Shown here one piece after another: positions 39,701 to 64,000 of a DNA stretch of 64,000 nt. This DNA comes from Bolinopsis microptera (lineage: Eukaryota > Ctenophora > Tentaculata > Lobata > Bolinopsidae): positions 21,726,270 to 21,790,269 of the forward strand of contig NC_087073.1 of the NCBI RefSeq assembly GCF_026151205.1. Direction: 5' to 3'. The notes beneath the pieces were generated by a model. It worked only from the letters and a program-made list of their open reading frames with translations, was not told the DNA's origin and ran no database searches. A program made the position numbers and the translations under genes. Within the stretch, counting starts at the first letter, position 1, and every line of letters starts with the position of its first letter.

Positions 39701-42700
39701 TGTAGTAGTTTTCAGCGCATACCCCTGTAGCCGAATCTTTTTCACATTTCTTCTGCATATATCCCAAAACCTCGTAGATGGCGAATCCTCCCAGCAGGGC
39801 AATACCAGTGTCACTGTTGAAGGTGTTACATAGGTGTTACATAGGTGTTACATATGTTAAATAGGTGTTTAAAATGTATTTTTATTTTACTCAATACTCA
39901 TAGTTGTAAGATCATTTTGGGTGTCAACTTGATTGTGAACTAGATTAAGTGAGTAAATATTATATATTACCTGAGAGATATGGCCTTCTCGCTCATTGCA
40001 ACGTTAGTTTTACTTTTGGAGTTGTGAGAACTATAGGCAGTCATCACGCCCATACACACACCCAATGAGAAAAATACCTAAAAAGGGGAACATTAAACAT
40101 TAAAGAGGGAGCCTCAAACAAACAATCAGCAGGGAATAGGACGTTAAACAGTAAAAGAGAAGAAGGGAACGTTAAATAGTAGGAGAGAACGTTCAAATGG
40201 GGAAGGGAACATTTAACAGAAGGAGGGATTGTTTAACAGAAGGAGGGATTGTTTAACAGGAGGAGGGATTGTTTAACAGGAAGAGAGATTGTTTAACAGG
40301 AGGAGGGAACGTTCAAATGGGGAAGGGAACATTTAACAGAAGGAGGGATTGTTTAACAGAAGGAGGGATTGTTTAACAGAAGGAGGGATTGTTTAACAGG
40401 AGGAGGGATTATTTAACAGGAGAAGGGATTGTTTAACAGGAGGAGGGATTGTTTAACAGGAGGAGGGATTGTTTAACAGGAGGAGGGATTGTTTAACAGA
40501 GGAGGGATTGTTTAACAGGAGGAGGGATTGTTTAACAGGAGGAGGGATTGTTTAACAGGAGGAGGGATTATTTAACAGGAGGAGGGATTGTTTAACAGAG
40601 GAGGGATTGTTTAACAGGAGGAGGGATTGTTTAACAGGAGGAGGGATTGTTTAACAGGAGGAGGGATTATTTAACAGGAGGAGGGATTGTTTAACAGGAG
40701 GAGGGATTGTTTAACAGGAGGAGGGATTATTTAACAGGAGGAGGGATTGTTTAACAGGAGGAGGGATTGTTTAACAGGAGGAGGGATTGTTTAACAGAGG
40801 AGGGATTGTTTAACAGGAGGAGGGATTGTTTAACAGGAGGAGGGATTGTTTAACAGGAGGAGGGATTATTTAACAGGAGGAGGGATTGTTTAACAGAGGA
40901 GGGATTGTTTAACAGGAGGAGGGATTGTTTAACAGGAGGAGGGATTGTTTAACAGGAGGAGGGATTATTTAACAGGAGGAGGGATTGTTTAACAGGAGGA
41001 GGGATTGTTTAACAGGAGGAGGGATTATTTAACAGGAGGAGGGATTGTTTAACAGGAGGAGGGATTATTTAACAGGAGGAGGGATTGTTTAACAGAAAGA
41101 GAGATTGTTTAACAGGAGGAGAGATTGTTTAACAGGAGGAGGGATTGTTTAACAGGAGGAGGGATTGTTTAACAGAGGAGGGATTGTTTAACAGGAGGAG
41201 AGATTGTTTAACAGGAGGAGAGATTGTTTAACAGGAGGAGGGATTGTTTAACAGGAGGAGGGATTGTTTAACAGGAGGAGGGATTGTTTAACAGGAGGAG
41301 GGATTGTTTAACAGGAGGAGGGATTGTTTAACAGGAAGAGAGATTGTTTAACAGGAGGAGGGATTATTTAACAGGAGGAGGGAACGTTCAAATGGGGAAG
41401 GGAACGTTTAACAGGAGGAGGGTTGTTTAACAGGTTACAGGAGGAGGGATTGTTTAACAGGAGGAGGGATTGTTTAACAGGAAGAGAGATTGTTTAACAG
41501 GAGGAGGGATTATTTAACAGGAGGAGGGATTGTTTAACAGGAGGAGGGATTGTTTAACAGGAGGAGGGATTATTTAACAGGAGGAGGGATTGTTTAACAG
41601 GAGGAGGAATTGTTTAACAGGAGGAGGGATTGTTTAACAGGAGGAGGGATTATTTAACAGAAAGAGAGATTGTTTAACAGGAGGAGAGATTGTTTAACAG
41701 GAGGAGGAATTGTTTAACAGGAGGAGAGATTGTTTAACAGGAGGAGGGATTGTTTAACAGGAGAAGGGACTGTTAAACAGGAGGAGGGAACGTTTAACAG
41801 GAGAAGGGATTGTTTTACAGGAGGAGGGATTGTTTAACAGGAGGAGGGATTGTTTAACAGGAGGAGGGATTATTTAACAGGAGGAGGGAACGTTCAAATG
41901 GGGAAGGGAACGTTCAACAGGAGGAGGGATTGTTTAACAGGGAGAGATAACAGGGAGAGGCTGCAGAAAAGCTGGAGCGTTACACATTTCCAAGAAACTG
42001 TTAAGAAGGGATGTAAAGTTGTTGAATAATTAGGGAAACATCGGAATAGTAATAAGAGGGCATCATACCTGGCCGATAGCTTTAGTCCATATGACAGGGT
42101 CATTCAAAGTACTGCCGTCCCATTTGATCAGGTAAGCCTTAATACCATCCCCTGCTCCATCTAGGAATGCACCTGAAACAGAGACCTTTACTTCGGAGTG
42201 TAATTCAAGCAGGGAATCATATTTCATATTTTCTTCAAGTTGAAAGAATGCGATAAATTATAACCTTTGATAAAGCTTTCGCTGACGTTAAGGAAAGTAG
42301 AAATTGTCCAGCAAGGGTGTTAATTAGCCGCAATCCTCCCAAGATAAAATACGTTAGGATCTTAAGATTTTTTAGATATCATTGAGCATAAACAGTGATA
42401 CAACGCATCTCGGGATGATCCGCAGAGTCTCGACTAGTTTCGGCTTACCGCCATCAACAGGATCGATGAATCATCTAGCGGGAAATTTGAAATCAATCAT
42501 CAATAAACAACATTCCGAAAGTATAAAAGCAAAATTCAAAGGAAATGTCAGTAGGAAAATGTACGAAGTAGGTAATGTAAATAAGGTAACTACTGTGAAA
42601 GCATAGTTGTGGAACACAACAAGAAAATTGAGAATAATCTTGTGCGAGGGTAGGGACCCAGATGTCGTTTCTAACCCAAATAAACTTTAAGGAGGCTTCT

Positions 42701-45700
42701 CATCAGTAGCCGCACCTCCTTACTCGGTTTCTGAACTGGAATTCTATGGGCTTCCAGACGGCCAGACCGAGTATTACCACCCCATCCTTCTAGAGTTCAT
42801 CACAAGTAGCACCCACCTTGAAGATCTTTGACACCCAGACACACCCCATTGGCGAACAAACTTTGGATATAATCTTACATGCTCCCGAAGGAATCCCTGG
42901 TTTATGGTCTTTCTCATCGTCACCAGCACTTTCACTAGAGTCACCAGCCCTTTCACTGGAGTCATCAGCCCAATCACTGAAGTATACAGAAGTATAGTTG
43001 TGGAACACAACAAGAAAATTGAGAATAATCTTGTGCGAGGGTAGGGACCCAGATGTCGTTTCTAACCCAAATAAACTTTAAGGAGGCTTCTCATCAGTAG
43101 CCGCACCTCCTTACTCGGTTTCTGAACTGGAATTCTATGGGCTTCCAGACGGCCAGACCGAGTATTACCACCCCATCCTTCTAGAGTTCATTACAAGTAG
43201 CACCCACCTTGAAGATCTTTGACACCCAGACACACCCCATTGGCGAACAAACTTTGGATATAATCTTACATGCTCCCGAAGGAATCCCTGGTTTATGGTC
43301 TGGGCCAAAACGACTACAAAACGTACAGAGTAAGGTTTTTTTAAAAATATTTTTTTACATATGTCCCAGACCCATAGCTAGATCTATGAATTGTTTTGGC
43401 CCACTCCATGATTTCACAGTAGTTACCTTATTTACATTACCTACTTCGTACATTTTCCTACTGATATTTCCTTTGAATTTTGCTTTTATACTTTCGGAAT
43501 GTTGTTTATTGATAATTGATTTCAAATTTCCCGCTAGATGATTCATCGATCCTGTTGATGGCGGTAAGCCGAAACTAGTCGAGACTCTGCGGATCATCCC
43601 GAGATACGTTGTATCACTGCTTATGCTCAATGATATCTAAAAAAAAATTAATTATAACCTAATATATATAACAGCATAATAAGAGAGTAACTAATAAAAA
43701 CCTCTGATGATGAGAATGAGCAGTATGAGCAGAGGAAGGGGAACTGTGAACTTTACAACCCAGCTCGTACTCTTAACTCCCTTGAAGATGCTCAGGAAGA
43801 TCAGTATCCACACCACCGTGATGCCAACAAACACTTTCCAGTTGAAAGTACCGAGCCAGTCGAACTCAGTCGATGGGTCTGCTAGCTTTCTAGCTGAGTA
43901 GTTAGTTGTGTTAAATGTGTTAGTTGTGTTAGTTATTTTAGTTGTGTTAGTTATTTTAGTTATTTTAGTTGTGTTAGTTATTTTAGTTGTGTTAGTCGTG
44001 TTAGTTATTTTAGTTGTGTTAGTCGTGTTAGTTATTTTAGTTGTGTTAGTCGTGTTAGTTATTTTAGTTATTTTAGTTGTGTTAGTTGTGTTAAATGTGT
44101 TAGTTATTTAAGTTGTGTTAGTTATTTTAGTTGTGTTAGTTATTTTAGTTGTGTTAGTTGTGTTAGTTATTTTAGTTGTGTTAGTCGTGTTGATTATTTT
44201 AGTTGTGTTAGTCGTGTTAGTTATTTTAGTTGTGTTAGTCGTGTTAGTTATTTTAGTTGTGTTAGTCGTGTTGATTATTTTAGTTGTGTTAGTTGTGTTG
44301 GTTCCATGCTAATTATATCAGTTGTTATAATGAAAGGTAACTGTTACAATTGTATTAGAAATTAGAAAGTATACAGAAAGTCACATGTAAATTCCACCTC
44401 ACGAAATAAGACACCCTACATATTATATATTTATATACATTACTAAGATAAGCACTCATGTACATTTCGCTTTGTCGTCTCGTTTTCATTCTATACTTTA
44501 TGGGGAGGGGGGGGGGGGGGGGGGGGGGGTTCCAACAGGGGGGGTTCCAACATGATTACTTGCTTAGTTAACTTATTAATCAATTTATTTACTCACCTGC
44601 CATACCAGCTGTCATGGAAATATCGTCGAAATGAGCTGCTTGATTGTCGTACCAAGGTATTGCGTCGGTTTTGTGGAAGCACTCCACAAAGTAAATACAA
44701 GCATACCCCAGGATAATACAGTAGTAGAAAGTAATGGTGTAGCCTGCAAACACACTCGCCAGTCCTATACCCCTGAGAGATAGTGAACTTTACTCGCTAA
44801 CAGTTAAACAAACAAACACACTCGCAGTCCTATACCCCTAAGAGACAGTGTTTTGTTTCTTACCTGAGTCTGGGGTTCATGGAACCGAACGCGTCAGCAT
44901 CTCCGGCCTGGTAGAAGGTTCCAATACTCAGCTCCATTCCGAGGATAGGCATTCCCACGAATATCAAGATGAAGAAGTAGGGAATGAGGAATGGAGCGCC
45001 TCCGTACCTGTGTAGCAGTTTAGTTCATGTTTATTTATCACATCATGATGAGAATTTATACATTCTAAAAGATTCTATTCTTACAAACGGATATCCCACA
45101 ACATTTGCCCCTGCCCCTGCCCCTCCTCTTCCCTCCTCTTCCATCCTCCTCTTCCCTGCTCTTCCCTCCTCTTCCCTCCTCTTCCCTCCTCTTCCCTCCT
45201 CTTCCCTCCTCTTCCCTTCTCTTCCCTCCTCTTCCCTCCTCTTCCCTGCTCTTCCCTGCTCTTCCCTGCTCTTCCCTCCTCTTCCCTTCTCTTCCCTTCT
45301 CTTCCCTCCTCTTCCCTCCTCTTCCCTGCTCTTCCCTCCTCTTCCCTCCTCTTCCCTCCTCTTCCCTCCTCTTCCCTGCTCTTCCCTGCTCTTCCCTCCT
45401 CTTCCCTTCTCTTCCCTGCTCTTCCCTCCTCTTCCCTTCTCTTCCCTCCTCTTCCCTCCCTTTCCCTCCTCTTCCCTCCTCTTCCCTCCTCTTCCCTCCT
45501 CTTCCCTCCTCTTCCCTCCTCTTCCCTTCTCTTCCCTCCTCTTCCCTCCTCTTCCCTCCTCTTCCCTTCTCTTCCCTCCTCTTCCCTCCTCTTCCCTGCT
45601 CTTCCCTGCTCTTCCCTGCTCTTCCCTCCTCTTCCCTTCTCTTCCCTCCTCTTCCCTTCTCTTCCCTCCTCTTCCCTCCTCTTCCCTCCTCTTCCCTCCT

Positions 45701-46729
45701 CTTCCCTGCTCTTCCCTGCTCTTCCCTGCTCTTCCCTCCTCTTCCCTTCTCTTCCCTCCTCTTCCCTCCCTTTCCCTCCTCTTCCCTCCTCTTCCCTCCT
45801 CTTCCCTCCTCTTCCCTCCTCTTCCCTCCTCTTCCCTTCTCTTCCCTCCTCTTCCCTCCTCTTCCCTCCTCTTCCCTCCTCTTCCCTCCTCTTCCCTCCT
45901 CTTCCCTCCTCTTCCCTCCTCTTCCCTTCTCTTCCCTCCTCTTCCCTCCTCTTCCCTCCTCTTCCCTCCTCTTCCCTCCTCTTCCCTCCTCTTCCCTCCT
46001 CTTCCCTCCTCTTCCCTCCTCTTCCCTCCTCTTCCCTTCTCTTCCCTCCTCTTCCCTCCTCTTCCCTGCTCTTCCCTGCTCTTCCCTGCTCTTCCCTCCT
46101 CTTCCCTTCTCTTCCCTCCTCTTCCCTCCTCTTCCCTGCTCTTCCCTCCTCTTCCCTCCTCTTCCCTCCTCTTCCCTCCTCTTCCCTGCTCTTCCCTGCT
46201 CTTCCCTGCTCTTCCTCCTCTTCCCTTCTCTTCCCTCCTCTTCCCTCCCTTTCCCTCCTCTTCCCTCCTCTTCCCTCCTCTTCCCTCCTCTTCCCTCCTC
46301 TTCCCTCCTCTTCCCTTCTCTTCCCTCCTCTTCCCTCCTCTTCCCTCCTCTTCCCTCCTCTTCCCTCCTCTTCCCTCCTCTTCCCTCCTCTTCCCTCCTC
46401 TTCCCTCCTCTTCCCTCCTCTTCCCTTCTCTTCCCTCCTCTTCCCTCCTCTTCCCTCCTCTTCCCTCCTCTTCCCTCCTCTTCCCTCCTCTTCCCTCCTC
46501 TTCCCTCCTCTTCCCTCCTCTTCCCTCCTCTTCCCTCCTCTTCCCTCCTCTTCCCTCCTCTTCCCCACACCAATACTCACTGAGACACCAAGTTAGGGAA
46601 CCTCCAGACGTTTCCCAGACCTACAGCAGAACCTACTGCAGCTAGAATGAAGGAGATTGGGTGATCCCATTCCTTCCTCCCTTTCTCACGATCCTGTTGG
46701 ATCTTGGACTCTATGTCAACATCGCCCAT
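30631..46729 (-). CDS. sodium:neurotransmitter symporter (NSS/SLC6-type), 15 coding exons
   Basis: Joined exons (minus order): 46581-46729, 44864-45007, 44597-44772, 43702-43893, 42069-42172, 39971-40077, 39659-39813, 39135-39250, 38880-38980, 33759-33879, 33475-33636, 33134-33249, 31511-31598, 31007-31176, then 30839-30881 or 30631-30706. All phases fit. The product is 647 or 658 residues with about 12 membrane helices. Family marks: TM1 [20 protein letters not shown]2 [13 protein letters not shown]3 with FYY (carboxylate-binding Tyr); TM6 [22 protein letters not shown]8 [10 protein letters not shown] (Na2 site Asp-Ser); TM10-like [22 protein letters not shown]1 has Gly where monoamine transporters have Asp, which fits an amino-acid-like substrate. 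The large EL2 with paired Cys seen in vertebrate SLC6 is missing. TM7 has Asp/Ala at two usual Cl- ligands. Role (family knowledge): Na+-driven solute uptake at the plasma membrane. The substrate is not predictable. Confidence 0.95.
30839..30881 (-). CDS. symporter exon 15a, proximal terminal exon
   Basis: CACTTTCAG acceptor in the correct phase. Encodes [13 protein letters not shown] and TAA. The stop lies inside AATAAA (minus strand of 30838-30843), so coding end and poly(A) signal overlap. An alternative to exon 15b. Confidence 0.7.
31007..31176 (-). CDS. symporter exon 14 (TM12)
   Basis: TGTTCAG acceptor, ACATG/GTAAGT donor. Encodes [40 protein letters not shown] and [12 protein letters not shown]. 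The acceptor and first 44 coding bases are the first unit of a 62-bp array. Confidence 0.92.
31133..31428 (-). repeat. 62-bp array of the exon 14 acceptor
   Basis: About 4.8 copies, with the acceptor CAG at about 31177, 31239, 31301 and 31363 and a degenerate one at 31425. Each has TGTTCAG followed by GGTGAT(A/T)TAGAG and the coding start. After the copied coding part each upstream copy meets TAA, so use of a decoy acceptor would truncate the protein before TM12. Confidence 0.9.
31511..31598 (-). CDS. symporter exon 13
   Basis: CCCTCTACAG acceptor (branch-like CTAAT upstream), AAG/GTACGT donor. Encodes [20 protein letters not shown] and VVTCINIK. A nearer CACCAG acceptor at 31621 would break the frame, so 31598 was chosen. 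Confidence 0.85.
31625..31735. repeat. 41-bp-type repeat with CCAATCAGAACACAG (inverted)
   Basis: Two to three copies of a unit containing CTGTGTTCTGATTGGTTGGT and CACGTG. The same unit, on the other strand, forms the array at 48130-48375 in the beta-galactosidase gene. Confidence 0.85.
31799..31993 (+). pseudogene. possible Cys-loop receptor-like fragment (antisense in intron 12)
   Basis: A plus-strand open stretch encodes [20 protein letters not shown], then [18 protein letters not shown] before GTCAGT. W-x-P-D-x-x-F-F resembles loop A of the extracellular domain of pentameric ligand-gated channels, and SGEHLQ resembles the next strand. An AG acceptor-like site precedes it. No other exons of such a gene were found, so it is either a stray fragment or a chance match. 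Confidence 0.3.
31982..33127. repeat. 14-bp CTGCAG-rich array
   Basis: Irregular units of AGCTGCAGTTAAGT and AGCTGCAGTAAAGT type fill intron 12 up to the exon 12 donor. Higher-order blocks of about 120 bp (TAACTGCAGTAGAGAAGCTT) are repeated near 32460-32880. Confidence 0.9.
33134..33249 (-). CDS. symporter exon 12
   Basis: TTTCAG acceptor, ATGGG/GTTAGT donor. Encodes [20 protein letters not shown] and [16 protein letters not shown]. The CTGCAG-rich array begins directly after the donor. Confidence 0.9.
33475..33636 (-). CDS. symporter exon 11 (TM11 region)
   Basis: CACAG acceptor, GCG/GTAAGT donor. Encodes [20 protein letters not shown], then the loop [20 protein letters not shown]. Confidence 0.9.
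33759..33879 (-). CDS. symporter exon 10 (TM10)
   Basis: TTTCAG acceptor, CAG/GTGACA donor. Encodes [20 protein letters not shown] and [20 protein letters not shown], very typical for the family. Confidence 0.93.
33899..34045. repeat. 37-bp repeat, intron 9
   Basis: Three to four copies of a 37-bp unit containing AATAACCACGTGATGCCCTA and TAAGGTAATG. The same unit forms a longer array in intron 7 (39317-39640). Confidence 0.9.
34160..38877. repeat. GTGTGTAGCT array, 4.7 kb, intron 9
   Basis: Mixture of 12-bp (AGCTGTGTGTGT) and 10-bp (AGCTGTGTGT) units, with rare AGCAGTGTGTGT and AGTAGTGTGTGT clusters (37240-37340). 34160-35140 is much more irregular than the rest, with many small indels, suggesting either decay or poor consensus. 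ORFs of up to 1586 codons on the minus strand are repeat translations. Confidence 0.95.
38880..38980 (-). CDS. symporter exon 9 (TM9)
   Basis: CTCAG acceptor, GATAG/GTGAGA donor. Encodes [20 protein letters not shown] and [13 protein letters not shown]. The 4.7-kb GTGTGTAGCT array starts right after the donor. Confidence 0.93.
39135..39250 (-). CDS. symporter exon 8 (TM8), GC donor
   Basis: TTTTTAG acceptor. Encodes [20 protein letters not shown] and [17 protein letters not shown]. The donor is AAG/GCAATT, a GC rather than GT 5' splice site; no in-phase GT alternative was found nearby. Confidence 0.9.
39317..39640. repeat. 37-bp repeat array, intron 7
   Basis: About nine copies of the intron 9 unit (ACCACGTGATGCCTAAATAA, then GGTAATG). 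It ends just beside the exon 7 donor. Confidence 0.9.
39659..39813 (-). CDS. symporter exon 7 (TM7)
   Basis: TTCAACAG acceptor, TTCAG/GTTATC donor. Encodes [20 protein letters not shown], then an extracellular stretch and [10 protein letters not shown]. Asp and Ala sit at the positions of the SLC6 Asn and Ser that bind chloride. Confidence 0.93.
39814..39860. repeat. 13-bp repeat at exon 7 acceptor
   Basis: Three to four copies of AGGTGTTACATAG directly upstream of the exon 7 acceptor. Confidence 0.8.
39971..40077 (-). CDS. symporter exon 6 (TM6 to TM7 entry)
   Basis: TTTTTAG acceptor, CTCAG/GTAATA donor. Encodes [20 protein letters not shown], then [15 protein letters not shown]. Confidence 0.93.
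40160..41945. repeat. 20-bp minisatellite, intron 5
   Basis: About 88 copies of AACAGGAGGAGGGATTGTTT with GATTATTT, AAGAGAGATT and GAACGTTCAAATGGGGAAGG variants. A block ending in AACAGAGGAGGG recurs every 100 to 340 bp. Confidence 0.95.
42069..42172 (-). CDS. symporter exon 5 (EL3 to start of TM6)
   Basis: TTTCAG acceptor, CAG/GTATGA donor. Encodes [20 protein letters not shown] and IWTKAIGQ; the Gln is a Cl- site ligand in SLC6 relatives. Confidence 0.93.
42376..43641. mobile_element. composite inverted/direct repeat element in intron 4
   Basis: Outer arms 42376-42603 and 43414-43641 are inverted repeats about 97% alike. Inside lie two direct repeats of about 305 bp (42604-42909 and 42995-43300). 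Both outer arms encode the same peptide ([20 protein letters not shown], then [19 protein letters not shown]), on the plus strand at left and the minus strand at right, with mostly silent changes. Origin unknown. It is likely a mobile element or gene fragment duplicated head to head. Confidence 0.6.
43702..43893 (-). CDS. symporter exon 4 (TM4-TM5)
   Basis: ACTCAG acceptor, GAG/GTTTTT donor. Encodes [40 protein letters not shown] and the start of [12 protein letters not shown] 9-bp array (43906-44305) abuts the acceptor. Confidence 0.93.
43906..44305. repeat. 9-bp array, intron 3
   Basis: Units TTAGTTGTG, TTAGTTATT and TTAGTCGTG alternate, starting right at the exon 4 acceptor. Confidence 0.9.
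44597..44772 (-). CDS. symporter exon 3 (TM3, EL2)
   Basis: CTCTCAG acceptor, GCAG/GTGAGT donor. Encodes [20 protein letters not shown] and the short extracellular loop with [19 protein letters not shown]. Its 5' edge is duplicated 65 bp upstream in the intron. Confidence 0.93.
44752..44850 (-). repeat. duplicated exon 3 acceptor region
   Basis: 44752-44783 (true exon 3 edge) is repeated at 44818-44850 with one base deleted. Both have a pyrimidine-rich tract, (C/T)AG, then GGGTATAGGACTG. The upstream copy is a decoy acceptor only about 30 bases from the exon 2 donor. Confidence 0.85.
44864..45007 (-). CDS. symporter exon 2 (TM2)
   Basis: Between ACACAG acceptor and AG/GTAAG donor. Encodes [20 protein letters not shown] and [14 protein letters not shown]; the TM2 Tyr of the Cl- site is kept. 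Confidence 0.93.
45105..46565. repeat. 10-bp CTTCCCTCCT array, intron 1
   Basis: About 146 copies of CTTCCCTCCT with CTTCCCTGCT and CTTCCCTTCT variants. A block of about 430-480 bp, starting with three CTTCCCTGCT, is repeated near 45595, 45710, 46065 and 46190. Strongly polypyrimidine on plus, polypurine on minus. ORFs in all frames are artefacts. Confidence 0.95.
46581..46729 (-). CDS. symporter exon 1 (start codon, TM1)
   Basis: ATG in context AAAGATGGG (A at -3, G at +4). Encodes [20 protein letters not shown], then TM1 with [11 protein letters not shown]. Ends CA before GTGAGT. The first 18 coding bases belong to the first unit of the 66-bp array, so this start codon has about 11 upstream copies. 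Confidence 0.95.
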
Positions 46730-47490
46730 CTTTACGGGCTCGTATCTATTAATGTATCTAGTTTAAGCTTAAGGTTATGTGTCAACATCGCCCATCTTTA
46801 CGGGCTCGTATCTATTAATGTATCTAGTTTAAGCTTAAGGTTATATGTCAACATCGCCCATCTTTACGGGCTCGTATCTATTAATGTATCTAGTTTAAGC
46901 TTAAGGTTATGTGTCAACATCGCCCATCTTTACGGGCTCGTATCTATTAATGTATCTAGTTTAAGCTTAAGGTTATATGTCAACATCGCCCATCTTTACG
47001 GGCTCGTATCTATTAATGTATCTAGTTTAAGCTTAAGGTTATGTGTCAACATCGCCCATCTTTACGGGCTCGTATCTATTAATGTATCTAGTTTAAGCTT
47101 AAGGTTATGTGTCAACATCGCCCATCTTTACGGGCTCGTATCTATTAATGTATCTAGTTTAAGCTTAAGGTTATATGTCAACATCGCCCATCTTTACGGG
47201 CTCGTATCTATTAATGTATCTAGTTTAAGCTTAAGGTTATGTGTCAACATCGCCCATCTTTACGGGCTCGTATCTATTAATGTATCTAGTTTAAGCTTAA
47301 GGTTATGTGTCAACATCGCCCATCTTTACGGGCTCGTATCTATTAATGTATCTAGTTTAAGCTTAAGGTTATGTGTCAACATCGCCCATCTTTACGGGCT
47401 CGTATCTATTAATGTATCTAGTTTAAGCTTAAGGTTATATGTCAACATCGCCCATCTTTACGGGCTCGTATCTATTAATGTATCTAGTTT
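46710..47490 (-). repeat. 66-bp array of the symporter start region
   Basis: About 12 copies of a 66-bp unit. On the minus strand each has GAGCCCGTAAAGATGGGCGA, then TGTTGACA. In upstream copies the ATG is followed by MGDVDI or MGDVDT and then TAA. Only the copy nearest the gene continues into exon 1. The plus-strand 290-codon ORF is the repeat read in a stop-free frame. Confidence 0.95.
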
Positions 47491-47518
47491 AAGTTATTTG
47501 TCGTTAACTGATTGGTTA

Positions 47519-48021: not shown

Positions 48022-51000
48022 GTAATTCTATTCAAATTATATATCACCTCGGTTTAACGTGTTTTTAATGATGCAAAGATATTAGATTAGTTGGAGATCG
48101 AACTTGAACTTTGTGGAGTAAATCTTGCGATTCACCGGGTGACACAAACTAAACAATCAGAACACAGTATTCACACCACGTGACACAAACTAAACAATAT
48201 CCACACCACGTGACAGAAACCAACCAATCAGAACACAGTATTCACACCACGTGACACAAACCAACCAATCAGAACACAGTATTCACACCACGTGACACAA
48301 ACTAAACAATCAGAACACAGTATTCACACCACGTGACACAAACCAAACAATCAAAACACAGTATTCACACCACTAATACGAGATGCCCCCAGAGAGATTG
48401 CTACGCTAAGGATGGCGAGTGTTACCGTTACATTGCGGGGGAAATGCATTACTTCCGAATCCCAGCCCACTATTGGGAGGACAGGCTCTTGAAACTCCGT
48501 GCTGCTGGATTCACTACTGTTCAAACGTGAGTATCAATTATCAAGTAGTAACACAAACAGGCTACTCACACCAAGTCACACAAACATGCTACTCACACCA
48601 AGTCACACAAACAGGCTACTCACATCAAGTCACACAAACAGGCTACTCACATCAAGTCACACAAACAGGCTACTCACACCAAGTCACACAAACATGCTAC
48701 TCACACCAAGTCACACAAACAGGCTACTCACATCAAGTCACACAAACAGGCTACTCACACCAAGTCACACAAACAGGCTACTCACATCAAGTCACACAAA
48801 CATGCTACTCACATCAAGTCACACAAACAGGCTACTCACATCAAGTCACACAAACAGGCTACTCACACCAAGTCACACAAACAGGCTACTCACATCAAGT
48901 CACACAAACAGGCTACTCACATCAAGTCACACAAACAGGCTACTCACATCAAGTCACACAAACAGGCTACTCACATCAAGTCACACAAACAGGCTACTCA
49001 CATCAAGTCACACAAACAGGCTACTCACACCAAGTCACACAAACATGCTACTCACACCAAGTCACACAAACAGGCTACTCACATCAAGTCACACAAACAG
49101 GCTACTCACACCGAGTCACACAAACAAGCTACTCACATCAAGTCACACAAACAGGCTACTCACACCAAGTCACACAAACAGGCTACTCACACCGAGTCAC
49201 ACAAACAGGCTTCTCACATCAAGTCACACAAACAGGCTACTCAGACACATCAAGTCACACAAACAGGCTTCTCACATCAAGTCACACAAACATGCTACTC
49301 ACACCAAGTCACACAAACAGGCTACTCACACCAAGTCACACAAACAGGCTACTCACACCAAGTCACACAAACAGGCTACTCACACCGAGTCACACAAACA
49401 AGCTACTCACATCAAGTCACACAAACAGGCTACTCACATCAAGTCACACAAACAGGCTACTCACAGCAAGTCACACAAACAGGCTACTCACACCAAGTCA
49501 CACAAACAGGCTACTCACATCAAGTCACACAAACAGGCTACTCACATCAAGTCACACAAACAGGCTACTCACATCAAGTCACACAAACAGGCTACTCACA
49601 CCAAGTCACACAAACAGGCTACTCACATCAAGTCACACAAACAGGCTACTCATACCAAGTCACACAAACAAGCTACTCACATCAAGTCACACAAACAAGC
49701 TACTCACATCAAGTCACACAAACAGGCTACTCACATCAAGTCACACAAACAGGCTACTCACACCAAGTCACACAAACAGGCTACTCACACCAAGTCACAC
49801 AAACAGGCTTCTCACATCAAGTCACACAAACAGGCTACTCACATCAAGTCACACAAACAGGCTACTCACACCGAGTCACACAAACAGGCTACTCACACCA
49901 AGTCACAAAAACAAGCTACTCACATCAAGTCACACAAACAGGCTACTCATACCAAATCACACAAACAAGCTACTCACACCAAGTCACACAAACAGGCTAC
50001 TCACATCAATTCACACAAACAAGCTACTCACATCAAGTCACACAAACAGGCTACTCACACCAAGTCACACAAACATGCTACTCACACCAAGTCACACAAA
50101 CAGGCTTCTCACATCAAGTAACACAAACAGGCTACTTACTCAAGGTTACTAAAATATCAATAGCTACGGCTATTATTAATTATACAGTTTACCTAATCAG
50201 CCACAGCATCTTATCTTATATCAGGTTCAAGATTGTGAGTGTAGAAATTACATCGTGTTGGATGGAATGTTAACAGTGGGAAATGTAACAAGTGTGTGGG
50301 AAATGGAACAAGTATGTGGGAAATGTAATAAGTATTTGGGAAATGTAAAAAGTGTGTGGGAAATGTAAAAAGTGTGTGGGAAATTTAACAAGTATGTGGG
50401 AAATGTAACAAGTGTGTGGGAAATGTAACAAGTATGTGGGAAATGTAAAAAGTGTGTGGGAAATGTAACAAGTGTGTGGGAAATGTAACAAGTGTGTGGG
50501 AAATGTAACAAGTGTGTGGGAAATGTAATAAGTATTTGGGAAATGTAAAAAGTGTGTGGGAAATGTAAAAAGTGTGTGGGAAATTTAACAAGTATGTGGG
50601 AAATTTAACAAGTGTGTGGGAAATGTAACAAGTGTGTGGGAAATGTAACAAGTATGTGGGAAATGGAACAAGTGTGCGGGAAATGTAAAAAGTGTGCGGG
50701 AAATGTAAAAAGTGTGTGGGAAATGTAACAAGTATGTGGGAAATGGAACAAGTGTGCGGGAAATGTAAAAAGTGTGTGGGAAATGTAACAAGTATGTGGG
50801 AAATGTAACAAGTATGTGGGAAATTTAACAAGTGTGTGGGAAATGTAACAAGTGTGTGGGAAATTTAACAAGTGTGTGGGAAATGTAACAAGTGTGTGGG
50901 AAATTTAATAAGTATGTGGGAAATTTAACAAGTGTGTGGGAAATTTAACAAGTGTGTGGGAATTGTAACAAGTGTGTGGGAAATTTAATAAGTATGTGGG

Positions 51001-54000
51001 AAATTTAACAAGTGTGTGGGAAATTTAACAAGTGTGTGGGAAATGTAACAAGTATGTGGGAAATGTAACAAGTGTGTGGGAAATGTAACAAGTATGTGGG
51101 AAATGTAACAAGTGTGTGGGAAATGTAACAAGTGTGTGGGAAATGTAACAAGTGTGCGGGAAATGTAACAAGTGTGTGGGAAATGTAACAAGTATGTGGG
51201 AAATTTAACAAGTGTGTGGGAAATGTAACAAGTGTGTGGGAAATTTAATAAGTATGTGGGAAATTTAACAAGTGTGTGGGAAATTTAACAAGTGTGTGGG
51301 AAATGTAACAAGTATGTGGGAAATGTAACAAGTGTGTGGGAAATGTAACAAGTGTGTGGGAAATGTAACAAGTGTGTGGGAAATGTAACAAGTGTGTGGG
51401 AAATGTAAAAAGTGTGTGGGAAATGTAACAAGTGTGTGGGAAATGTAACAAGTGTATGGGAAATGTACCAAGTATGTGGGAAATTTAACAAGCGTGTGTG
51501 AAATGTAGTGGTGTCATTAAACAGGCAGATGCTTTATAACTCGGCCATTTTTAATTTTAGTGCAATCGACGAAATTTGGTATACGGGAGTTCGGGATGTA
51601 AGTTTACTGTTATGTGTTCCTACTTTGAATTTACTTTTGGTTCTTTACTTTGAGAAGGATCAAACAAAGAGAAACGAGGATAACAACGTTAGAACAAAAG
51701 GGGTATATTAGGGAATAGTAACAACACGTATAAACAAGACCGACTGAAGGGAAATGTGAATGGGATAGGGAATAGGGATAACTTTGTGAAGGGGTAACTT
51801 TACTCCAAAACTCTTACTATCTATATGGGCTGATTGCTTACGGAGCAAGACTATAACGGTGCATCTCAAATATCTATCAGTGCGTGACGTTGCCTAATTA
51901 ATCTTAAAAAAGGTTTAACTAATGAGCCAAATAATTGCTTGAGATTGACATAAAAACGGTTTGACCTTGCATTAGAACAAAACACCATTAACTTTAAACC
52001 AAACAATAACTGGGATCCCTAGGGAGAGTGGAGACCAGGAGACCACTAGCTTATAAGCTCATAGAAGTAGAGCACCCAAAATCTAGGTGTATACGCTACT
52101 TCATAGGTACTTCAGTAATACAGTGCATATAAACCTCACTTTTAACTGGGAGTAATGATCTTCTTCCGGGATAAATAAGTCACTAGGTTCCTTACTGTGT
52201 AGTGTGCACTCACTGTACTGAGAAGGACGTATTCAAAGAAGGAGAATCCTAGCCGAGATCGCTTTTAAGAAGTTTAAAAAGGTGTGGTTGTCCGGTAAGA
52301 AAAGGTTATATGATGAACAAGTTGTATCTGTATTGATTTATAACTCAAACAGTTGGAGTCCTAAGAAAGCAACCATGGAGAATATAGACACACCTCATCG
52401 TAGACACCTGAAGTCCATTTTAAACATCAAATGGCCTAAAGGTATGATAAGCAACAAAGCATTGTATGAAATGTGCAAAGTTGAAAAGTTATCCAAGCGT
52501 ATCGGTTTGGACACATTCTCAGGACTATGGAGAACACCCCAGCCCAAACGGCTCTCTCTTTTGCTATTGAATCAGATAATTTATTAATTGGAAGATTGGG
52601 GAGACCTAGAATGAACTTGTTATCTGCTTTAAGAAATTATTAATGATTTAAGTAGTACAAATTTGCACATAGATAACTTGCATGAATTAAACAAAATCAA
52701 AGATATAGCTGCATGCAACAGATGTTGGGAAAATCTGTTTCAAGGGTACAGTTTACCGCATTAAGGTATTTTTATGAATCATTTTTGTCGGTAAGATCCT
52801 GTTTTATAATAATAATAAGAATATTATTATAATAATAATATTTATCCCGGAAATTATTATAGGAGTCACGTGTATCGGAGAATAGAAAATATAACTAATC
52901 TGCTTATGTTCGCTTAGTAATGGCATTATGCATTATGCAGAGCAAGGATAACTTCATTACCTGCGCGGGTTCTGGAGAATTTTCAATTTAATTTTGTGCA
53001 TATTTTTCCATTTTATTCCCAAGGCCATATTTCAATTTATAATAATATTTACATTCTACGGTAGTTATGTGTGTTATAATATGCATTGTTTCTGAGAAAT
53101 GACATTCAATACAAACAACATCTACGTTTACAATTTGCACGTGCGCCTATTTCAGGTACATACCGTGGAACGTGCACGTGCCTGCGGAAGACACATACAG
53201 TTTTGAGGGAATAGCAAACGTGTACAGTTACCTGGAGACAGCATGGTCACTAGGGCTCACAGTGATAGTGCGACCTGGCCCCTTTCTGGCAACGGAGTGG
53301 GACTACGGGGGCTTCCCTGCTTGGTTACTAAAAGATAGGCCTACTTTAGAGTGAGTCATATTATCTACTAACATAGATATTATGTTTTCTGGAACCAGTG
53401 GCGTAACATTGCCTGGCGCCCCCCCCCCCCCCCCGAAAAAGCGCCCCCCTGTTGGCGTCCCCTCCCCTTTTGGCGCCCCTCCCTAAAATTGAACAAATTA
53501 TGTGATTTTAGAGGATACGCCGGTAAAATCTCTAAAAAAGTGTATTTCTAGAGCAAAACACGCAGTTTTGCTAGTACCTCAGTTAAGTTTTTCAAATTGT
53601 CCCACATTCAAAAGACGATTTGGTGCACCCCTAAAGCCCTAAGATGGCGGCAATCTGCTACATATAATATATATATATTAATAATAATATATATTATATT
53701 AATATATAATGTATGTAGAGATGTATCTTTTTGGAAAGTTGCCAAAAAGTTTTGCATGTTTCTGCAGCTAAATTATTTCAGTGTACGACGGAACGAGACA
53801 ATGTTTATGAAGGAGGTGAAAAAGTGGTATTCCAAACTCCTCCCCACACTGAAACCCTACTTGTACAGTAGCGGGGGTCCTATTATTGCAGTTCAGGTAC
53901 TTTGTTTACTGAAACCCTACTTGTACAGTAGTGGGGGTCCTATTATTGCAGTTCAGGTACTTTGTTTACTGAAACCCTACTTGTACAGTAGCGGGGGTCC

Positions 54001-57000
54001 TATTATTGCAGTTCAGGTACTTTGTTTACTGAAACCCTACTTGTACAGTAGCGGGGGTCCTATTATTGCAGTTCAGGTACTTTGTTTACTGAAACCCTAC
54101 TTGTACAGTAGTGGGGGTCCTATTATTGCAGTTCAGGTACTTTGTTTACTGAAACCCTACTTGTACAGTAGCGGGGGTCCTATTATTGCAGTTCAGGTAC
54201 TTTGTTTACTGAAACCCTACTTGTACAGTAGCGGGGGGTCCTATTATTGCAGTTCAGGTACTTTGTTTACTGAAACCCTACTTGTACAGTAGCGGGGGTC
54301 CTATTATTGCAGTTCAGGTACTTTGTTTACTGAAACCCTACTTGTACAGTAGCGGGGGTCCTATTATTGCAGTTCAGGTACTTTGTTTACTGAAACCCAA
54401 CTTGTACAGTAGCGGGGGTCCTATTATTGCAGTTCAGGTACTTTGTTTACTGAAACCCTACTTGTACAGTAGTGGGGGTCCTATTATTGCAGTTCAGGTA
54501 CTTTGTTTACTGAAACCCAACTTGTACAGTAGCGGGGGTCCTATTATTGCAGTTCAGGTACTTTGTTTACTGAAACCCTACTTGTACAGTAGCGGGGGTC
54601 CTATTATTGCAGTTCAGGTACTTTGTTTACTGAAACCCTACTTGTACAGTAGTGGGGGTCCTATTATTGCAGTTCAGGTACTTTGTTTACTGAAACCCTA
54701 CTTGTACAGTAGTGGGGGTCCTATTATTGCAGTTCAGGTACTTTGTTTATTGAAACCCTACTTGTACAGTAGCAGGGGTCCTATTATTGCAGTTCAGGTA
54801 CTTTGTTTACTGAAACCCAACTTGTACAGTATAGTGGGGGTCCTATTATTGCAGTTCAGGTACTTTGTTTACTGAAACCCAACTTGTACAGTAGCGGGGG
54901 TCCTATTATTGCAGTTCAGGTACTTTGTTTACTGAAACCCTACTTGTACAGTAGCGGGGGGTCCTATTATTGCAGTTCAGGTACTTTGTTTACTGAAACC
55001 CTACTTGTACAGTAGTGGGGGTCCTATTATTGCAGTTCAGGTACTTTGTTTACTGAAACCCTACTTGTACAGTAGCGGGGGTCCTATTATTGCAGTTCAG
55101 GTACTTTGTTTACTGAAACCCAACTTGTACAGTATAGTGGGGGTCCTATTATTGCAGTTCAGGTACTTTGTTTACTGAAACCCAACTTGTACAGTATAGT
55201 GGGGGTCCTATTATTGCAGTTCAGGTACTTTGTTTACTGAAACCCAACTTGTACAGTAGCGGGGGTCCTATTATTGCAGTTCAGGTACTTTGTTTACTGA
55301 AACCCTACTTGTACAGTAGTGGGGGTCCTATTATTGCAGTTCAGGTACTTTGTTTACTGAAACCCTACTTGTACAGTAGTGGGGGTCCTATTATTGCAGT
55401 TCAGGTACTTTGTTTACTGAAACCCAACTTGTACAGTAGCGGGGGTCCTATTATTGCAGTTCAGGTACTTTGTTTACTGAAACCCAACTTGTACAGTAGC
55501 GGGGGTCCTATTATTGCAGTTCAGGTACTTTGTTTACTGAAACCCAACTTGTACAGTATAGTGGGGTCCTATTATTGCAGTTCAGGTACTTTGTTTACTG
55601 AAACCCAACTTGTACAGTAGTGGGGGTCCTATTATTGCAGTTCAGGTACTTTGTTTACTGAAACCCTACTTGTACAGTAGCGGGGGTCCTATTATTGCAG
55701 TTCAGGTACTTTGTTTACTGAAACCCTACTTGTACAGTAGTGGGGGTCCTATTATTGCAGTTCAGGTACTTTGTTTATTGAAACCCTACTTGTACAGTAG
55801 CGGGGGTCCTATTATTGCAGTTCAGGTACTTTGTTTACTGAAACCCTACTTGTACAGTAGTGGGGGTCCTATTATTGCAGTTCAGGTACTTTGTTTACTG
55901 AAACCCTACTTGTACAGTAGCGGGGGTCCTATTATTGCAGTTCAGGTACTTTGTTTACTGAAACCCAACTTGTACAGTAGTGGGGGTCCTATTATTGCAG
56001 TTCAGGTACTTTGTTTACTGAAACCCTACTTGTACAGTAGCGGGGGTCCTATTATTGCAGTTCAGGTACTTTGTTTACTGAAACCCAACTTGTACAGTAG
56101 TGGGGGTCCTATTATTGCAGTTCAGGTACTTTGTTTACTGAAACCCTACTTGTACAGTAGCGGGGGGTCCTATTATTGCAGTTCAGGCACTTTGTTTACT
56201 GAAACCCAACTTGTACAGTAGAAGGGGTCCTATTATTGCAGTTCAGGTACTTTGTTTACTTAACTGAAACCCTACTTGTACAGTATAGTCATATAGTGGG
56301 GGTCCTATTATTGCAGTTCAGGTACTTTGTTTACTGAAACCCAACTTGTACAGTAGCGGGGGTCCTATTATTGCAGTTCAGGTACTTTGTTTACTGAAAC
56401 CCAACTTGTACAGTAGTGGGGGTCCTATTATTGCAGTTCAGGTACTTTGTTTACTGAAACCCTACTTGTACAGTAGCGGGGGTCCTATTATTGCAGTTCA
56501 GGTACTTTGTTTACTGAAACCCAACTTGTACAGTAGTGGGGGTCCTATTATTGCAGTTCAGGTACTTTGTTTACTGAAACCCAACTTGTACAGTAGTGGG
56601 GGTCCTATTATTGCAGTTCAGGCACTTTGTTTACTGAAACCCAACTTGTACAGTAGAAGGGGTCCTATTATTGCAGTTCAGGTACTTTGTTTACTTAACT
56701 GAAACCCTACTTGTACAGTATAGTCATATAGTGGGGGTCCTATTATTGCAGTTCAGGCACACGGGTCACGGGTGCTAAATATCAAATACAGGTGCTAAAT
56801 ATCAAATAAATAATCATATAGTGAAGAAAAATGTGATAAGTGATAATGCAGCGACTTTCAATAGCATCCAGTGGCCACCGATATCATCGATATCAGTGGC
56901 CACTGGACAAAAGAGGGTGAATCTTGGCAAATGAGTAAGTGTAACTCGTCAAGCAGGAACATAATCCCTCAACAGATTGAAATTGAGGCACTTTATTCAC

Positions 57001-60000
57001 GATTAGATATATTTAATTCCAGTTATAGTTAGATGATATTATAGTTTGCAGGAATTTTAGCTTTTACACACATAACAATGTTGGAATGTTGTTTCAATAT
57101 TGGACATTATACTCACGACCATCTCAACTAACCCTAATCTTCCTCCCATTTAATTGCAAACTTTTCTATGAGGATAATTCTATAAGTTTATAACTTGAAT
57201 TGTTAGGAAGCTCAGTGTAAGACATTAATCTTGTAAGTTATTAGTTGTGTTTAACTCAACAATCTCGTAATATTACGCGTAATTTATCCTGAGAGTGCCT
57301 TAAAAGCTACAAATATGATGAATTGTTCAGCCTAATTGCGGTGTTTTTTGTCTCCAAATTTGCCGCACTTTAAAAAAAATAAGGCAAGAGCGAAATCGCA
57401 CTATTTGCAAAATATTACCGCAGTGCAACCATGGTCAGCACATGAATTACAAGTGGCTAAAACGAATAGAAGATAATATGTAATAGGAGGTAAAAAGACA
57501 TAGCTGTAAGTTATTTTGCAATGAAATACTATCAAACTTGAATATTTAGATTTGCAGTGAGACTAATGTAGAAAACCTAATCCCTATTACCTTAGTTAAT
57601 TATGCCCTGTAGTTGTTAACATGGCGTGAATTTCTCTATATATCAGGTGATTTCTCTTTACCAGACCCAAAATGACGTGTCGGGATTATTAATACGGTAA
57701 TACAGGTAATAAAGATAATAAAGATAATATGTTTAGATCCCAAAGTGGTGTAAAAAACGCAAAATAAATTAATGTGATTTTTGATTTAACAAACATTTAA
57801 CGTGCGGCGGATAAATAAACTAGCAGTAGTATACTGTAGTATATACAGTATACACTATACAGTATATGCGCTTAGTCAATAAAGGCACCGTGATTGTTAT
57901 AAAAAGGAGATGATGAAGCAAGTATTCAGGAACATATGCATGACACAAAGAAGAATGGTCGGTGGGCATTGGGACATAAATATTATATGTGTATATATAC
58001 ACTATAAAGTCAGTATTTAAGAATTTGTACAACAACTTTTCATTTATTGACCCAATTGTAGGCGACGAAAATAATTATCGAATTATTTTTCTTATAAGTT
58101 TAACAAATAGCTTTTAGTTATACATGATAAATCTCATGATGCAAATTCAGCAGGAGAAATTATAAAACAAGCTACAAATTTATAGAGTACGGAAGTAGGT
58201 CCACTGCGTAACTCAAAGCAAAACAACAAAGCTTCACCAATAGTAAACTTGTTGCAGTGTAGTGTTCTAAACTTCTAAAGAAGTAGGCACACAGCTCCAC
58301 TGTCTAAACATTGGTGTATTGTTTAGATTATTCGACATATAGAGCCTGTTAGTGTTATATTAGTGATTAGAGTTATTTATTGTTTACATAATCCGTCACA
58401 CCATGTCTAAATAAATAAGCAATCAGGTCTAACTGACGTGATTAGTAACTGAATCAGTACAAACAAGGGTAATCCCAAACTAACCAGTAACTAAACCTCG
58501 TAGTCAGGGGTGTAGGAAGAGGGGGGGGGGGGTGAACAGAGGGGGAGGGCGTAGTCCCTGATAACCATATGATATACCCATCGATAGTCTATAACACAAA
58601 TCACCTATTATAACCACAGTATATACAGAAGTTAGCGCGAAAATCATTCTTGCAGAATGAGTACACCTATTCTCCTCCTCAATCTTATTTTACTACCTAA
58701 CCACACTGATAACAGGAAAATATGGCAGGTTGGGAAGGAGTACCGTTATCCAGATTTTGTGATAATGCGCAGTAAACTGGAATAATGCAGGTTGCAGAAT
58801 GAGTATACGGGAGTAAACCAGGAATATTGCAGCTGAAGAACTGCTACACACGCACGAACTACACGGGCGACTAACAAACAGGAATATTATGCACGCGTAT
58901 GACAGAAAGAGTACGGGAGTAACAGTAATATATTGCAGGTATAGAGAATTGAGTTACTAGGAGTAACCATATAAACTAGAATATTGCAGTTGTTGCAGAT
59001 GAGACATAACGGAGTCAACATAGAATAGTGCAGGTAGTAGAATGAGCTACAGGAGTAACAGGCCGATTTGCAAAGGTTGAGAAATGAGTACGGGAGTAAC
59101 CGGAATAATTTGCAAAATTTGCCAGGATTGGGAATACGTACGGAGCGAGAAATCGGAGGAAAATAGCAGCGCTAGAGAATGACTACAGGAGTAACCAGGC
59201 ATATTGCAGGTTTGAGAATGAGTATCTGGAGTACAGGAAATAATTGTCAGGTTGGAGTGATTATGATACGCGAGTAACAGGAATCATTGCAGTTTGACGA
59301 AGGAGTACTGATCCTTTCGGAAGTAACCACAGGCATATATTGCCAGGCTTTGATGAGAATATTGAGTAAGTACTGTCCGACCTAGTAACAGAATATTGCT
59401 ATGGCTGCAGAATGAGTAGTGGGATTAAAACAGAAATTGCACGGTTGAGAATAGTACAGAGGAGCTAACAGGAAATATTGACAAGGTTTGACGCAATGAG
59501 TCATACGTACGCGCGTACACCCAGAATTTCGCAGGTGAAATAGAGTCGACCAACCGAAGAGTACGTCGAGTAACTCTCAGGAATAATACTTTGCAGGTTG
59601 AGACATGATTACCGTACTAACTGCGAGTTAACTAGGATATATTGCACCGGTGTAAGAAATGAAGTACAGGAGTAACAGGAAAAAAAGATGGTAGTTGAAA
59701 TGAGTACCGGGAGTAACAGGAATATTGCAGTTGAGAATGAGGTTCGGAGTAACAGGAAGATTGCGGTTTGGGAAAGAGTCGGGGGAACAGAATATTGCAG
59801 GGGAGAATGATACGGAGTAACAAAAATTGCAGGTTTAAAGAGTAGGGGGTAAAGAATATTGCAGGTTGAGAATGATAGGGGGTAACAGGAATATTCAGTT
59901 GAGAAGGGTAGGAAAACAGAATATTGCAGGTTGGGAAAGAGTACGGAGTAACAAGAAATGCAGGGAATGAGTAAGTAAACAGGGAAAATTTCAGGGAAAT

Positions 60001-63000
60001 GAGTACGGAGTAACAGAAATTGCAGGTTTTAGAATGAAGGAGTAACAGGGAAAATTGCAGGGTTTAGAATGGTACGGGAACGAATATGCAGGTTAGAAAA
60101 GATACGGGGGGTAACGGGAAATTTTCAGGGAAAAAGAAGGGGGGTAACAGGAATATTGCAGGTTGAGAATGGGTAGGGAACAGAATATGCAAAGGGTTTA
60201 AAGAGTTCGGAGTAACAAAATTGCAGGGGAGAAAAGTAGGGAGTAACAGGAAAATTTCAGGTTGGAAAGGACGGGGGAAAAAAGAATATTTAGTTGAAAT
60301 GAGTAGGGGTAACAGGGAAAATGCAGGAGAAATGGCGGAGTAACAGGAAATGCAGGTTGGAATGATACGGAGTAAAAGAAAATTGCGGTTTAGAATGGAG
60401 GGGGGTAAAAGGAAAATTGCAGGTTAGAATGAGTACGGGGGGGAACAGGGAAAATGCAGGGTTTAGAATGAGGAGGGGAAACAAATATTTCGGTTGGAAA
60501 GGTGGGAGTAACAGAAAATTTCAGGTTTGGGAAGATAAAAGGGGGGGAACGAATATTGCAGGTTAGAATGAGAGGGAAAAAAGGGAAATTGCAAGGGTTT
60601 AAATAAGGGGAGTAAAAAATATTGCAGGGTTTAGAATGAGACGGAGTAACAGGAAAAATTGCAGGGTTTAAAAATGATACGGGGGTAACAGGAAATTGCA
60701 GGTTGAGAATGATAGGGGTAACAGGAAATTGCAGGTTGAAATGAGTAGGGATAACAGGAAAAATTGCAGGTTAGAAGGGTAAGGGGGGTAACAGGGAAAT
60801 TGCAGGTTTTAATGAGTACGGGGGTAACAGGAAAATTGCGGTGAGAAAGAGTAGGGGGGAAAAGGAAAAATTTCAGGTTGAGATGAGAGGGGTAACAGGA
60901 ATATGCAGGTTTAAATGAGTACGGGATAAAAAAGGGAAATTTCAGGGTTTAAATGAGTCGGGATAACAGAATATTGCAGGTTAGAATGATACGATAACAG
61001 GAATATTCAGTTGAAAGAGTAGGGAGAACAGGGAAATTTCAGGTTGGAAGGAAGGGGGGTAACAGGGAAAATTTCAGGGTTAGTAAAGGAAAAAAAAAAA
61101 AGGGTTAGAAGAAGGAGTAACGGGAAAAATTGCAGGTTTGAAAGAGTACGGGGGAACAGGGGAAAATTTCAGGGGATGAGTAAAAAAGAAAATTTCAGGT
61201 TGAGAAAAGATTTTGGGAGAAAGGAAAATTGCAGGTTAAAAGAGTACGGGAGTAACAGGGAATATTGCAGTTGAGAATGATGGGGGGGGAACAGGAAATT
61301 ATTAAAAGGTTGGGGGAACAGGGAAATTGAGGTTGGAAAGAACGGGGAACAGAATATTGCAGGTTGAGAATGATGGGATAACAGGAATATTGCAGGTTGA
61401 AATGAATACGGATAACAGGGGAAAATTGCAGGTTGAGAATGATAGGGATAACGGAAAAATTTCAGGTTTAGAATGAACGGAGAACAGAAAATTTCAGTTG
61501 AAATATAGGGGGTAACCCGGGAAAAAGCCGGTTGAGAAAGGGTGGGAGTAAAAGGAATATTGCAGGTTTGGGAAAGAACGGGGTAACAGAATATTGCAGG
61601 TTTTGGAAAGAGTAAAGGATAAAGAAATATTCAGGTGAGAATGAGTAGGGAGTAACAGAATATGCAGTTGAGAATGAGTACGGAAAACAGGGAAAAAGCA
61701 GGTTAAAGATACGGGAGTAACAGGAATATTGCGGGTTGAGAAGGGTACGGGAGTAACAAGAAATTGCAGGGAGAAAGTTGGGGGAAACCCAAATATTGCA
61801 GGGTTTTTGAAGGGAGGTTTAAAAAATTGCAGGTTTGGGAAAGAGAAAAGGAGTAACAGAAATTCAGGTTGAAATGAGAGGGGGGTAACAGAATATTTCA
61901 GGTTGAGAANNNNNNNNNNNNNNNNNNNNNNNNNNNNNNNNNNNNNNNNNNNNNNNNNNNNNNNNNNNNNNNNNNNNNNNNNNNNNNNNNNNNNNNNNNN
62001 NNNNNNNNNTTACATGCAAAGAGCATACAAGTTCTGTTGCTGAAGAATGCGGGGATAGGTCATGTTGATGATACGTCTTAGATGTTTGCGTTGACACACA
62101 TCAACTATACTTGATAATGTTCTGTGGAGTGCCCAGCTGTTACAGTTGTACAAAAAACAGGGGTAACAAAATGCTTCATACAGCTTGATTTTTACAGGAA
62201 GAGAAATGCGGGATTTCTCTGCCCATACCTTGCTGTATTTCTCAAAGGCAACGTAAGCAAGATGCATCGGCGAGAGATATCAGCCTTACTGCAGAGCTTG
62301 GATCCAAGAGAAATAGTGTTTGCGCCAGGGCTCTCTGTTCTTCACGGGTTCACCCTTGGCGTCTACCCTCGTCCTTATCTGCAATGTAGAGTGGACATGT
62401 TCTGTTTTGTCCTCGTTCACAAACAGGTTCCATTCTTCAAGGATCTCCTTACATATGGCAGCATTTCTTTAAGAGTTTCCTCATCCTCATCTGCAAAATT
62501 GCCATCGTCGGCGTATTCCCATTCAATAGGCATGAGGGTCTCGGGGTTGAACGGTGGGTTAGGCCGAATGGTAATCACTACTGCACGGAAGTGATACAAA
62601 GCTCCAGCAAAGTACAGTGTGAAGAATGCACCAGATGCAGCATCACCTTGAAACGAACCCTCGGATGTTTCAAACTCTAAGGAAATGGTGTTGTTGATTT
62701 TTATTCTCAATTTGGTGTTGGAGAGCAAGTATCTCGCCAAACGAATGTCATCCTCACAACAATCAGCACCAGCCAAAAGTTCCAGGATAAACTGATCTCT
62801 TTATGGTATCGAAGGCCGAGCTCATGTCGATTCCCATCTTGTGGAACTCCCATCTCTTCTCTTTCACAACAGAATTAGGATATAATTAATGCTCATAATT
62901 ACAGGATTAAGATATAATTAATGCTCATATTACAGGATTAGGATATAATTAATGCTCATAATTACAGGATTAGGATATAATTAATGCTCATAATTACAGC

Positions 63001-63753: not shown

Positions 63754-64000
63754 GTACATACCAAGAGGCAGGCAATGGGAACTCGCCAGCCCACGGCAAC
63801 ATTTAATATATTGACAAAACCCCGTAACATAACAAGAGATGAGATCTGGCAATATTACACCTCAGATAAATGAAAAGTAATGATAAAGTATTATATTTAG
63901 TTATAACTAAACACTTGCAAATATAAAATATAATATAAAATATAATATAAAATAGAATATAATCTACTATGACCTATAAGAACAGCGGAGAATTAAAACG
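63754..64000. other. beta-galactosidase intron sequence, right edge
   Basis: AT-rich, with a short ATATAAAATATA repeat at about 63918-63960. No exon seen. Confidence 0.5.

Follow-up and report, generated by a model that had tools for sequence, protein, structure and literature searches.

In a beta-galactosidase gene of the ctenophore Bolinopsis microptera, which lies in a 64,000-nucleotide stretch of contig NC_087073.1 (positions 21,726,270 to 21,790,269; the window), one intron carries tandem arrays at its 5′ and 3′ ends, and each array unit contains a piece of coding exon together with its splice site. The splice dinucleotides are kept in these arrays, unit numbers differ between two near-identical copies of the gene, and in silico the unextended protein is obtained only from the outermost donor and the outermost acceptor. 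Repeats across exon-intron boundaries have been described in amphioxus, where they were named mirages (PMC3087553), so that the remark in an earlier note on this DNA that no named system of the kind was known does not stand. The arrays are probably tolerated junction minisatellites of this class, spliced at their outermost sites (first donor, last acceptor).

The donor-side array consists of 48 units at 53849-56765 on the forward strand, as determined with Tandem Repeats Finder (TRF), by splitting the array into units and by listing its donors. Its first unit begins within exon 4 of the gene (53782-53896, forward strand; recognized by a PF01301 match, a structure match and its flanks), the last 48 nt of which form the exonic portion of that unit. 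The prevailing 60-bp unit joins these 48 nt (LKPYLYSSGGPIIAVQ) to 12 intronic nt (GTACTTTGTTTA); 37 units have this length, and the others measure 61 bp (n = 4), 62 bp (n = 3), 65 bp (n = 2), 67 bp (n = 1) and 70 bp (n = 1). The donor hexamer is GTACTT in 45 of the 48 units, GCACTT in two and GCACAC in one, the truncated final unit. Chance origin of the array is excluded by its TRF score of 5133. The earlier note had described about 48 in-frame tandem copies of an exon end at 53848-56757, each made of the last 48 bases of beta-galactosidase exon 4 plus a GTACTT donor and nearly all with a usable donor; coordinates, unit, exon identity and donor retention are all upheld, and what that note overlooked is the mirror array at the acceptor, the second gene copy and the published name. 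The identity of the gene as a GH35 beta-galactosidase follows from PF01301 matches exon by exon, and a query of exons 3 and 4 extended by VENEYGSN aligns to beta-galactosidases of known structure (7kdv, E 4.7e-32) right through VQVENEYGS, the ENEYG portion of the query having been taken from the array consensus.

The opposite end of the same intron is also arrayed (approximately 58650-61909, forward strand), with about 24 nt of exon 5 plus the acceptor in each unit. The consensus in this gene, copy 1, is the intron 3′ end AGGAATATTGCAG followed by GTTGAGAATGAGTACGGGAGTAAC, the opening 24 nt of exon 5, which encode VENEYGSN. This array is worn or poorly read and rich in errors; about 15 core copies are still detectable at up to 4 mismatches, and it runs into a gap of 100 N (61910-62009), where it stops, the body of exon 5 not being found in copy 1. 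A clean counterpart is provided by a near-identical second copy of the gene 65-88 kb downstream (copy 2), in which both arrays read cleanly. The donor array of copy 2 has 97 units, of which a core search recovers 96 donor copies with GT in 94, and its acceptor array has 213 core copies, all 213 with AG, spaced mostly at 37 bp (about 24 exonic and 13 intronic nt). An intact exon 5 (VENEYGSNKPCDAGHFDYMTQLRDIYREHLGEEIVLLTVDGD) follows the last acceptor, and the intron from first donor to last acceptor spans 15.5 kb, made up mainly by the donor and acceptor arrays. Exon 4 of copy 2 ends, at the first donor, at C2:21845083, and its exon 5 begins behind the last acceptor at C2:21860618.

Over the 685 nt compared in exons 2, 3, 4, A and B (A and B being later exons, described below), the two copies show 5 differences, exons 3 and A being identical, and the donor arrays carry 48 units in one and 97 in the other, be the copies alleles or duplicates. 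Along nearly their whole length the two donor arrays have their unit types in different order, and the terminal unit is common to both; a shared terminal unit and differing unit order beside near-identical exons point to fast turnover of an array that is older than the split of the copies. Copies 1 and 2 may be either recent duplicates or two haplotypes placed end to end. The region is repeated as a tandem block; outside the arrays, the identity of aligned segments ranges from about 79% to 100% and is mostly at least 96% around the beta-galactosidase gene. Two occurrences of this block, which contains GH20 open frames beside a beta-galactosidase and a diverged beta-galactosidase, lie in C2:21706270-21960269 (254 kb, including the window), and minisatellites shared by the two blocks vary widely in length, one 19-bp array having 46 units in one block and 1231 in the other.

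The consequences of site choice for the reading frame were followed by joining in silico all 94 × 213 = 20,022 GT-AG pairs of copy 2. In frame were 6,642 pairs, of which 13 were open and a single one, first donor to last acceptor, gave the normal, unextended protein. Twelve of the 13 open pairs use the last acceptor, with donors 1-3 and 5-13 (donor 4 reads AT), and the thirteenth joins donor 14 to the next-to-last acceptor. Donors 1-6 of copy 1 are in phase and open until unit 7, of 61 bp, shifts the frame, which is close to the break after about six or seven copies that had been claimed for this array. Every extension spliced to the last acceptor inserts at least 20 residues between VQ and VENEYG, directly before the catalytic ENEYG motif. 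In GH35 enzymes this insertion site is the barrel strand that bears the acid/base glutamate; extended proteins are unlikely to function because the insert would split that strand.

How such arrays could arise and persist may be outlined as follows. Short tandem duplications would have arisen across the 5′ and 3′ splice junctions of an old intron (VQ|VENEYG) and would have been tolerated, as surplus junction copies leave with the intron whenever the outermost sites are chosen. Each array would then be free to expand through ordinary minisatellite turnover, by unequal exchange or slippage, and the same logic at both intron ends would lead to arrays of the size seen, with 48 or 97 units on the donor side and over 200 acceptors. 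Use of the outermost pair in the cell, and this manner of growth, are what we infer from the sequence; the arrays are most likely harmless because the normal protein arises only from the outermost splice sites. Other beta-galactosidase genes (paralog 3, L028 on C11 and a fourth gene) share the intron position and have no such arrays there; because of this shared position, an origin of the intron itself by these duplications was rejected. Several observations weigh against splicing at the outermost sites. Reporters with duplicated identical splice sites often prefer the intron-proximal site, which here would be the innermost pair. Copy 1 has no readable exon 5 and could therefore be dead. Open in-frame extensions are available from the first 5 extra donors of copy 1 and, with the last acceptor, from 11 extra donors of copy 2, so that some alternative use of early inner donors remains conceivable.

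These open extensions are the basis of a different proposal, made in the earlier note, in which some transcripts would be spliced from early inner donors, each unit adding 20 residues before ENEYG, so that a family of length-variant enzymes results. The frame does permit a few such choices, namely five of the 48 donors of copy 1 (donors 2-6) and, in copy 2, 12 open extensions out of 20,022 pairs, 11 of which come from inner donors 2-13 with the last acceptor, and this much of the proposal stands. The remainder is doubtful: only 12 of the 20,021 non-canonical pairs of copy 2 are open, the insert would presumably break up the glutamate-bearing strand, and two near-identical copies offer different numbers of usable donors. 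We therefore assign length variants a small chance, and neutralisation by first-donor choice, which the earlier note had also considered, together with last-acceptor choice as its other half, appears to be the better reading.

It is similarly improbable that the arrays belong to a gene no longer in use. A pseudogene would account for the missing exon 5 of copy 1 and for its degraded or badly sequenced acceptor array, but exons 2-8, A and B of copy 2 are open where checked, and the low divergence of the exons, with exons 3 and A unchanged, also speaks against it. Far less credible still is an assembly artefact, in which the assembler would have generated the arrays, or their lengths, and copies 1 and 2 are perhaps haplotypes placed end to end. 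The error-rich acceptor array that stops at a gap in copy 1 would fit such an artefact, and the exons of the two copies are alike enough for alleles; however, the arrays are otherwise clean, contain several unit variants and share a terminal unit in both copies, separate mirages occur at other loci, and even if the copies were alleles the arrays would be on both haplotypes. Tolerated mirages spliced at their outermost sites thus remain the reading that we favour.

The rest of copy 1 in the window was assembled from family matches and from comparison with copy 2, all on the forward strand. Exon 2 (48408-48526) starts where the PF01301 match starts and ends, as its flanks were read, at a GTGAGT donor at 48527, and exon 3 (53156-53350) has a PF01301 match and 195 nt identical to copy 2. 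Beyond the gap, exon A (63027-63186; QYDPNCVIQSELPLPMEQMGQ) is identical over 160 nt to its duplicate in copy 2, its splice sites being read from the sequence, and is followed by exon B (63668-63811), placed through its duplicate in copy 2 and with its end not fixed. An 18 × 10-bp array found with TRF (63193-63372) begins 6 nt past the exon A donor and is wholly intronic. Open-frame pieces at 52222-52584 and 62118-62800 resemble, by eye, remnants of retroelement reverse transcriptases.

Boundary arrays occur at further junctions of the beta-galactosidase genes. Exon 8 of copy 2 has an acceptor array of 11 core copies with about 47 exonic nt, exon 5 of paralog 3 has a short donor array of 5 copies with about 9 exonic nt, exon 3 of L028 has arrays on both sides, with 16 acceptors and 36 donors, and the exon 5 donor of the fourth gene (L029 and L030) lies in 5 perfect 73-bp copies of 70 exonic nt plus GTA. 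Breakpoint microhomology in eight arrays was 5 and 3 nt in two and 1 nt in one, with no clean value in the other five because their units differ. GH35 matches that span the whole profile in one open frame, unlike the many-exon genes, were seen at C1:10249040-10250005 and C8:14635941-14636921; these are either intronless copies or foreign DNA.

Outside the beta-galactosidase family, the window holds an SLC6-like transporter gene on the reverse strand (31007-46762) with about 13 exon pieces and long intronic arrays; of four pieces tested, three matched PF00209, and two of these matches scored above the curated threshold. An acceptor-side array on the reverse strand at 31132-31427 (62 bp × 4.8, about 45 exonic and 17 intronic nt; TRF and position) is a likely mirage of this gene and probably the second in the window; the exon that bears it (approximately 31007-31176) has no Pfam match, and its position, open frame and splice signals are the grounds for assigning it to the gene. 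The beginning of this gene carries a 66-bp array (46714-47493, reverse strand) with 12 copies of the start-codon region AAAGATGGGCGATGTTGACA, the authentic one included. A further array in the window, at 107-749, has a 31-bp unit that starts CAGGTG, with a 281-bp higher-order period and 98% matches.

The idea that arrays generally favour splice junctions has only partial support. Of the 40 exon edges considered in three beta-galactosidase genes, 11 are straddled by an array or lie within 5 nt of one, a notable excess over the averages of 3.4 and 2.9 given by two null rules of placement (11 was reached in 2 and 0 of 2000 placements); straddling alone is weak evidence, at 6 of 40 edges against 2.95 and 2.5 (reached in 151 and 75 of 2000). 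In these counts, TRF scores the exon 7 donor of copy 2 as straddled, though its copies have no exon sequence in common, and one L028 donor was placed 3 nt off a GT, which is harmless at an array distance of 279 nt. One of 11 edges is straddled in the fourth gene and one lies at 5 nt (raw counts). Among 23 edges of the SLC6-like gene, 1 is straddled, 2 lie within 5 nt and 4 within 10 nt, with no clear excess (reached in 1491, 935 and 168 of 2000 placements, respectively). Edges whose site was not fixed were omitted, for example the exon 2 acceptor and exon B of copy 2 and the exon 6 donor of paralog 3, and likewise the exon 4 acceptor and exon 7 donor of L028, the h4 acceptor, h6 donor and h7 acceptor of the fourth gene, and the exon 1 and 12 acceptors and exon 8 donor of the SLC6-like gene. 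Four CCT chaperonin genes (23 matched pieces) have no array over any junction, which weighs against generality; one array there stops about 3 nt and another about 19 nt before an acceptor. Arrays occupy 51% of the 254-kb region and 10% of six other 3-kb loci. Because straddling is weak, the SLC6-like gene shows no clear excess and the CCT junctions carry none, arrays at junctions may be nothing more than what genes rich in arrays will tolerate.

A wider reading can be put forward only tentatively and with somewhat less than even confidence: the junctions of many ctenophore genes may have turned into minisatellites on one or both sides, with the spliceosome reliably taking the outermost of up to about 20,000 alike GT-AG pairs, against the proximity preference of reporters. 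If so, the arrays would be a standing reservoir of in-frame exon ends for longer exons or new introns. Genes built in this way are likely to be mis-assembled and mis-annotated. The locus is also a natural setting in which to see how the spliceosome selects one of many identical sites, with exon definition predicting the outermost pair and simple proximity the innermost.

In another ctenophore, Hormiphora, TRF repeats are given as 13% of the genome (PMC8527503). The absence of the nuclear-receptor DNA-binding domain, as a mark of ctenophores, is only weak evidence here: the domain gave 0 matches, but the control genomes gave no signal either. A literature search, consisting mostly of titles and the beginnings of abstracts and taking in few subscription papers, found no report of ctenophore mirages. 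Ordinary intronic minisatellites likewise have head-to-tail units and copy-number turnover; here a splice signal and the end of a coding exon belong to the unit. Intron gain by tandem genomic duplication also involves a duplication that carries splice signals, although no new intron is formed here. The closest likeness is to the amphioxus mirages of Adh3, troponin C, the globins BflGb6 and BflGb9, and PGBD5 (troponin C and PGBD5 were added in PMC3902484), in which the repeat unit also lies across an exon-intron boundary. According to these reports, amphioxus globin genes have repeats at both 3′ and 5′ boundaries, BflGb6 has 6 and 3 units in two haplotypes, the Adh3 mirage is somatically unstable, and RT-PCR (reverse transcription PCR) suggests that regular splicing is undisturbed (PMC3087553). 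The Bolinopsis arrays share with them a boundary-spanning unit, AG or GT kept in many copies, and copy-number variation; they differ in that a single intron is arrayed at both ends and in having 48 or 97 donor units and 213 acceptors, compared with the 6 and 3 of BflGb6. The name mirage therefore covers this locus, and what is new is the phylum, the two-sidedness and the copy number: an oddity of lancelets is extended to a ctenophore, at both ends of one intron and in tens or hundreds of copies.
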